Shown: one piece after another, positions 6,295 to 6,629 of the stretch
Layout: each line of letters starts with the position of its first letter
How positions within the stretch are numbered: position 1 is the stretch's first letter
Assembly (NCBI GenBank): GCA_009781115.1
Contig: WQYT01000007.1
Span: 1-38,488 of the forward strand
From: Coriobacteriia bacterium
GTDB taxonomy: Bacteria > Actinomycetota > Coriobacteriia > WRKU01 > WQUG01
Length of the DNA: 38,488 nt
Direction: 5' to 3'
The notes under the pieces: model-generated
The model's input: only the letters and a program-made list of their open reading frames with translations
Told to the model about the DNA's origin: nothing
Database searches by the model: none
Position numbers and translations under genes: made by a program

Positions 6295-6386
6295 GAAGAG
6301 ATTTTCCCGGAGAAGCCCCGAAAGGTGATCCGATACGGCCTTTAGGCCTTGAGGATCGACTTGAGCGGCTTATACGGGAAAAGATC
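6295..6386. repeat. 92-nt structured repeat, copy A (3' side of tRNA-Ser(UGA))
   Basis: gaagagattttcccggagaagccccgaaaggtgatccgatacggcctttaggccttgaggatcgacttgagcggcttatacgggaaaagatc; nested inverted repeats. Confidence 0.85.
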
Positions 6387-6393
6387 AAGCAGA

Positions 6394-6483
6394 TGGCGGA
6401 GGGGTAGGGATTCGAACCCTAGAACGGGGTAAACCGTTGCTGGTTTTCAAGACCAGTGCATTCAACCACTCTGCCACCCCTCC
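6394..6483 (-). tRNA. tRNA-Ser (anticodon UGA), CCA encoded
   Basis: Reverse complement ggaggggtggcagagtggttgaatgcactggtcttgaaaaccagcaacggtttaccccgttctagggttcgaatccctacccctccgcca; loop cttgaaa; long variable arm. Confidence 0.95.
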
Positions 6484-6537
6484 GTTTTGGTGACGACGAC
6501 AACAGCTTGCCCGGTTGATAGGCAAAACGCCCCAGAC

Positions 6538-6629
6538 GAAGAGATTTTCTTGCAGGAGCCCCGAAGAGCGATCCGTAACGGCCTTTAGGCCTTAAGGATC
6601 GATCTGAGCGGCTCCTGCGGGAAAAGATC
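6538..6629. repeat. 92-nt structured repeat, copy B (3' side of tRNA-Ser(GCU))
   Basis: gaagagattttcttgcaggagccccgaagagcgatccgtaacggcctttaggccttaaggatcgatctgagcggctcctgcgggaaaagatc. Confidence 0.85.

Follow-up and report, generated by a model that had tools for sequence, protein, structure and literature searches.

A genus-restricted palindromic repeat family behind tRNA and protein genes in uncultured Coriobacteriia

Introduction

Palindromic sequences at the 3′ ends of genes are known from several bacterial systems. REP/BIME palindromes, which are associated with RAYT transposases, are imperfect, intergenic, and often located at the 3′ ends of transcription units. The attC sites of integrons are also imperfect palindromes at gene 3′ ends; they are oriented with the gene, have a variable core, and fold better on the bottom strand. 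The BOX elements of Streptococcus pneumoniae overlap genes in 58 copies, 36 of which form the extreme 3′ end of the gene and supply its stop codon (PMC3049150). The ERIC element of enterobacteria, also referred to as IRU or RU-1, is an intergenic, MITE-like palindrome of approximately 127 bp that can extend the C-termini of genes (PMC2759123), and transcribed ERIC copies can affect mRNA stability (PMC2229807). Furthermore, quasi-palindrome template switching has been reported to create and repair stems (PMC8794818). Here, we describe two repeats, A and B, in a window comprising the whole analyzed stretch of 38,488 nucleotides from a Coriobacteriia bacterium. With a probability of roughly two in three, A and B belong to a non-autonomous palindromic interspersed repeat that is specific to one genus, resembles BOX, ERIC, and REP, and inserted directly behind gene 3′ ends on the strand of the gene. 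This reading draws on direct observation of copy number, genus restriction, position and orientation at 3′ ends, presence and absence at orthologous junctions, covariation, and locus-specific matching of the arms.

Repeats A and B and a Third Copy in the Window

The tRNA-Ser(TGA) gene (6394..6483, minus strand; encoded CCA at 6394-6396) was identified by ARAGORN and by Rfam RF00005 (60.7 bits), and the tRNA-Ser(GCT) gene (6638..6728, minus strand; encoded CCA at 6638-6640) was identified by ARAGORN and Rfam. A preliminary description of this DNA had placed a 92-nt structured repeat 3′ of each, and both repeats are indeed found at those positions, each with its minus-strand tRNA-Ser gene directly upstream. 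The two are 84% identical over the 92 nt, although this length is too short for the palindromes: outer arms extend repeat A to 6291..6392 (minus strand; CTGC/GCAG; cmsearch 106.2 bits over 6288-6397) and repeat B to 6532..6637 (minus strand; CCAGAC/GTCTGG; cmsearch 114.4 bits over 6531-6640). Repeat B directly abuts the CCA of tRNA-Ser(GCT), and repeat A starts 1 nt past that of tRNA-Ser(TGA). The stems described earlier exist, i.e., GATCC/GGATC, GGCC-loop-GGCC, and AAGCC/GGCTT in A versus GAGCC/GGCTC in B. When folded as the tRNA strand, A has a z-score of -4.1 and B one of -6.7; the opposite strand gives -5.7 and -6.1, respectively, and no shuffled sequence folds equally well. As had also been noted, no terminal U-run follows A or B in the tRNA direction, and the element lacks the U-tract that an intrinsic terminator has after its hairpin.

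A third copy, missed in the preliminary description, is located at 20547..20635 (plus strand; cmsearch 47.9 bits, E 4.5e-11, over 20536-20645) and abuts the encoded CCA of tRNA-Arg(CCT) (20471..20546, plus strand; ARAGORN). It represents a diverged subtype, AAGTCATTCAG...CTTCATGCCTT, with the outer arms CCTGTCATT/AATGACAGG. The repeat, which had been tied to tRNA-Ser, thus stands behind tRNA-Arg(CCT) in the same window, and it was found behind further tRNA and protein genes elsewhere.

Family Size and Distribution

The genomes compared, all of which are draft metagenome-assembled genomes (MAGs), include the genome of the window itself (G000; 1.98 Mb in 128 contigs, approximately 88% complete) and two congeners, G001 and G002. 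BLAST searches with B and A against G000 returned more than 15 dispersed copies. At E < 1e-6, a covariance model built from 21 copies recovered approximately 28 copies in G000, compared with approximately 12 and 6 in G001 and G002, respectively; the E-values are rough, and the counts do not equal independent events because the copies share ancestry. Such a search of related genomes had been proposed in the preliminary description; it gave matches in the two congeners, including matches beside other tRNA genes, and none in 36 further relatives belonging to the same family, order, or class. Across 84,980 species genomes, matches to the exact motif AAGCCGCTCAG-N25-55-CTTCGGGGCTT were confined to one MAG, Coriobacteriia bacterium Lab288P4bin85, whose copies have the same sequences as those of G001, and two isolated matches, approximately the number expected by chance. 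The host is accordingly an uncultured genus of Coriobacteriia (Actinomycetota); we take the MAG series of Lab288P4bin85 to be from termite gut, and the genus is therefore probably a termite-gut one. In Rfam, only tRNA was found at the gathering score, and all other matches of a permissive search were far under the threshold; a scan of viral contigs for the core motif gave no match.

Briefly, the repeat is approximately 90–110 bp long (typically approximately 100 bp), dispersed, mostly intergenic, and palindromic over its whole length. The core, AAGCC-G-CTCAG ... CTTCG-GGGCTT, is conserved, with a subtype AAGCCATTCAG ... CTTCATGTCTT, and the outer arms are locus-specific.

Placement at Gene 3′ Ends

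G000 contains 45 tRNA genes (44 Rfam hits and a tRNA-SeC identified by ARAGORN). At least 12 of them are followed by a same-strand copy that begins at the CCA, scored as -7 to +8 nt from the tRNA end: two genes each for Ser and Arg, and one each for Ala, Ile, Met, Cys, Gly, Leu (where the copy is part of a tandem array), SeC, and His. A copy behind tRNA-Val(CAC) in G000 is interrupted by another hairpin. Two more tRNA-adjacent copies are found in G001 and three in G002. The possibility that the repeat is a trailer RNA or processing signal specific to tRNA-Ser is highly implausible: it accords with both tRNA-Ser genes of the window and with tRNA-Ser(GCT) of G001, which also carries the repeat, whereas the same element stands behind Ala, Arg, Gly, Ile, Met, Cys, Leu, and SeC tRNAs and behind protein genes, and the orthologous tRNA-Ser(TGA) of G001 carries a different repeat family instead.

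Among the copies away from tRNA genes, 20 have the stop codon of a co-oriented gene at their start, with the stop ending -13 to +27 nt, mostly 0 to +7 nt, from position 1 of the model. The repeat is found at rpsI in all three species; at pstB and the genes for fumarase alpha and an ABC-2 permease in two species each; and at the stop codons of rplS, rplQ, secY, rpoD, prs, ahcY, and a DivIVA-like gene. The left arm of the repeat at the fumarase alpha gene (L076 and L067, from two species) encodes the last residues RSQTISFSA and the stop codon. In two further cases (L002 and L005), the copy begins immediately after the T-run of a canonical terminator. Not all copies conform: those in the 5′ regions of an NYN-domain gene (two species) and of a GntR gene are inverted, and copies before tRNA-Thr are on the opposite strand. 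The family is specific neither to tRNA-Ser nor to tRNA. Most copies lie away from tRNA-Ser, at least 20 of them behind protein genes, and a structured RNA co-transcribed with tRNA-Ser or a processing signal, both of which had been proposed, is accordingly unsupported as the primary nature of the element.

No known mode of DNA target recognition readily accounts for so exact a placement at stop codons, which counts against simple insertion. One could envisage that the repeat enters at the 3′ ends of RNAs and reading frames (CCA ends of mature tRNAs, terminator-made transcript ends, and stop codons) rather than at a DNA sequence, e.g., with element cDNA being attached to the 3′ terminus of a host RNA and returned to the genome by recombination, and that the right arm is copied from the host gene end on arrival or later. 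We consider this a long shot, and we know of no bacterial repeat with such an address.

Other Hairpins and Repeats near tRNA Genes

The 3′ ends of tRNA genes in these genomes carry further elements. A second repeat family (L147, tRNA-Ser(TGA) of G001; L103, tRNA-Gln(CTG) of G000) ends in a direct copy of the last bases of its host tRNA, e.g., CGAATCCCTACCCC, and in this respect resembles an integrated element with an att duplication, yet it is only approximately 130 bp long. In the window, a repeat-like stretch at 6810-6935, beyond the 5′ end of tRNA-Ser(GCT), contains a T-arm-like GGCTTGAACCCCGC (minus strand) and GCGAAGCGTAGCGAG, and resembles another repeat family (GGGCGAAACAGCCCRGTGGGCTGTTTCGGGCCGAGCGTAGCGAGGTCTCG) found behind genes for tRNA-Gln, Ser, Trp, Arg, and Ala. 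Yet another class of hairpin, TTTTGGCG...AAGTAG-loop-CTAC...CGCCAAAA, begins right at the CCA of tRNA-Pro genes (L119 and L106). The tRNA-Pro(CGG) locus of G002 (L157) contains a hairpin of approximately 52 nt that comprises only the outer arms of the present family without a core, GACTCGATCTCCTTTCGTGTA...TACACGAAACGATCTCTTCGTC. Finally, the tRNA-SeC gene with the repeat at its 3′ end is located at 1581-1677 of L012, and an organism with such a gene may use selenocysteine.

Turnover at Orthologous Junctions

The same junctions differ between species. Of the three, only G001 has the repeat between rplS and rnhB. Between prs and pth, which are 3 nt apart in G000 with no repeat, G002 has this repeat family, and a hairpin of another family occupies the position in G001 (rnhB and pth are presumed identities, named from the translated sequences). 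Behind tRNA-Ile, the repeat is found in G000, and a canonical terminator stands in its place in G001. The core also differs between species inside comparable ends, at the ABC-2 permease site (L015/L070) and at tRNA-Cys (L075/L084), and tRNA-Leu(TAA) is followed by four tandem hairpins of approximately 107 bp (L009, 1382-1813), in which two core classes alternate within shared CCAGAC/GTCTGG ends. These core differences and the four-hairpin array imply frequent turnover at gene 3′ ends. Among the three natures that had been considered in the preliminary description, an integration-derived repeat fits best, given that the family is dispersed and that congeners differ in whether a copy occupies a shared gene junction.

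Mobility would thus have spread the copies. Against this stand the few inverted copies in 5′ regions, at the NYN gene of two species and the GntR gene. Likewise, no partner transposase of the family was seen, and no target-site duplication was readable at the rplS and prs junctions, where the flanks are diverged. Two Y1 transposase genes were found in G000, neither with a copy of the repeat nearby, and none in G001 or G002; a Y1/RAYT link, as in REP, was rejected on these grounds.

The alternative that the element is a functional 3′-end hairpin, acting as a U-less intrinsic terminator or exonuclease block where transcription units end and selected as RNA, would account for copies at stop codons and CCA ends that are mostly co-oriented, for retention at rpsI in three species, and for the tRNA-Ile site, where the congener has a canonical terminator in place of the repeat of this genome. 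Furthermore, in a crude scan of the 200 nt that follow, most repeat-bearing tRNA genes of G000 showed no canonical terminator; many repeat-free tRNA genes likewise have no recognizable terminator, and the comparison across tRNAs is too noisy to serve as main evidence. By contrast, the copies at prs-pth in G002 and rplS-rnhB in G001 lie within operons. Since these junctions leave no room for a promoter and are empty in a congener, the repeat is not an obligatory terminator at rplS and prs. The two copies directly behind canonical terminators also speak against termination as its role. The terminator reading was downgraded because of the intra-operon copies and the missing wobble bias described below, and we consider it rather unlikely.

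Arm Pairing and Covariation

The compensatory helix changes noted between A and B are real and strong across 30 copies. In a 29-pair helix of 30 equal-length copies, 84.7% of cells are paired, compared with 73.2% after shuffling and at most 41.7% after sliding. Changes on both sides occur at 18 pairs, e.g., 13 C-G and 13 U-A at one pair and 17 G-C and 11 C-G at another, and the covariation score is 0.349 versus 0.146 for shuffled and at most 0.105 for slid arms (0/500). At rpsI and pstB, ortholog pairs keep the element with paired changes, and the sequence beyond it aligns poorly. The preliminary description had held that many non-tRNA sites combined with no covariation would speak against it; the non-tRNA sites are indeed many, whereas covariation is clearly present.

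The outermost arms vary by locus and yet pair with one another, with a mean longest perfect run of 5.8 versus 4.1 when right arms are swapped (0/2000). Several left arms consist of host sequence, which includes the CCA in tRNA copies, the stop codon of rpsI in CTGACG (CTGACG/CGTCAG), the last codons of ahcY in CCGTCTGATGAG, and TTTTGAC after a terminator. At prs, where the Phe-stop end of the gene forms the left arm, both arms have changed together (GTTTTAGC/GCTAAAAC in G001, GTTCTG/CAGAAC in G002), although the core of each species is of a different class.

The wobble pattern does not support selection on a co-transcribed RNA: with the tRNA-strand RNA as the selected object, G·U would be expected to outnumber A·C by far, and it is not favored. 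Over 33 non-redundant copies, compared with an aligner that is symmetric and scores either pair as a mismatch, G·U occurs 22 times and A·C 45 times, compared with 21 and 0, respectively, in a comparably treated control of the tRNA acceptor and T stems. The A·C excess is mostly one conserved C·A column and the remainder is about even; the claim is therefore limited to G·U not being favored, and none is made that the opposite strand is selected. This pattern on the transcribed strand disfavors the functional 3′-end hairpin and both RNA-type options of the preliminary description. Folding favors the opposite strand in 41 of 44 copies, by a median of 9 kcal/mol, which also counts against the functional hairpin.

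The last result is compatible with a recombination site formed by a single-stranded DNA hairpin of the bottom strand, attC-like or Y1-transposase-like, which would be recognized via conserved mismatches of the non-coding strand. The palindrome is imperfect, its unpaired 2×2 internal loop TC/TC is nearly invariant although neighboring pairs covary (C-G to U-A adjacent), its orientation at gene 3′ ends is fixed, and its cores are variable and exchangeable inside similar ends. However, the attC core triplets AAC/GTT are missing from most copies, the copies are single and stand beside housekeeping genes instead of in cassette arrays, and two of three species lack Y1 transposases; we regard such a site as quite improbable.

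For the preferred reading of an inserted palindromic repeat, the arms may be kept matched by hairpin-templated correction through quasi-palindrome template switching, by selection for a single-stranded hairpin, or by both. Template switching would explain the matched arms and the symmetric mismatches, and not the retention of the TC/TC loop, which hints at selection, e.g., recognition by a mobilizing enzyme. The near-invariance of this loop, together with retention at rpsI in three species, counts against purely passive insertion and suggests a further function. Transcripts would carry the hairpin as a trailer, either trimmed from the pre-tRNA or left on mRNA 3′ ends.

Significance and Comparison with Known Systems

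The family provides a clean case of a dispersed repeat with textbook covariation, a pattern commonly regarded as proving a functional RNA; in this repeat, G·U, the usual mark of RNA selection, is not preferred over A·C and one arm is often the end of the host gene. It renders testable the contributions of template switching and selection to arm matching, and the means by which so small a repeat locates gene 3′ ends with such precision. It is also a warning that RNA-finding pipelines may call such families tRNA-linked RNAs or terminators.

Like this family, BOX elements are palindromic interspersed repeats, and they are co-transcribed as 3′ extensions of operons. BOX is modular (A-B-C), whereas the present repeat is a single covarying hairpin with host-matched outer arms and with tRNA 3′ ends as a main address. 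ERIC, compared here by its features, has TA ends and TA target duplications, none of which were seen in this family. REP/BIME are imperfect intergenic palindromes, often at transcription-unit 3′ ends, as here (PMC2817692); the present family differs in its length of approximately 100 bp, its low copy number, and the lack of a linked Y1 transposase in two of three species. Integron attC sites resemble it in working only, i.e., as oriented gene-3′-end palindromes with a better-folding bottom strand and a variable core; membership was rejected on the sequences of the boxes RYYYAAC ... GTTRRRY, whose AAC/GTT is missing from most copies and in whose place the arms vary by locus (CCAGAC/GTCTGG, CTGACG/CGTCAG). 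Cassette arrays are absent as well. Maintenance of hairpins by template switching (PMC8794818) would explain compensated stems and host-templated arms without RNA selection; template switching is a mutational process rather than a family, and alone it would not preserve the invariant mismatches. On the best reading, these repeats form a new family of palindromic elements akin to BOX, ERIC, and REP. The kind itself is already known, since pneumococcal BOX also often forms gene 3′ ends (PMC3049150), and the new parts of this family are the tRNA CCA address and the host-matched arms.
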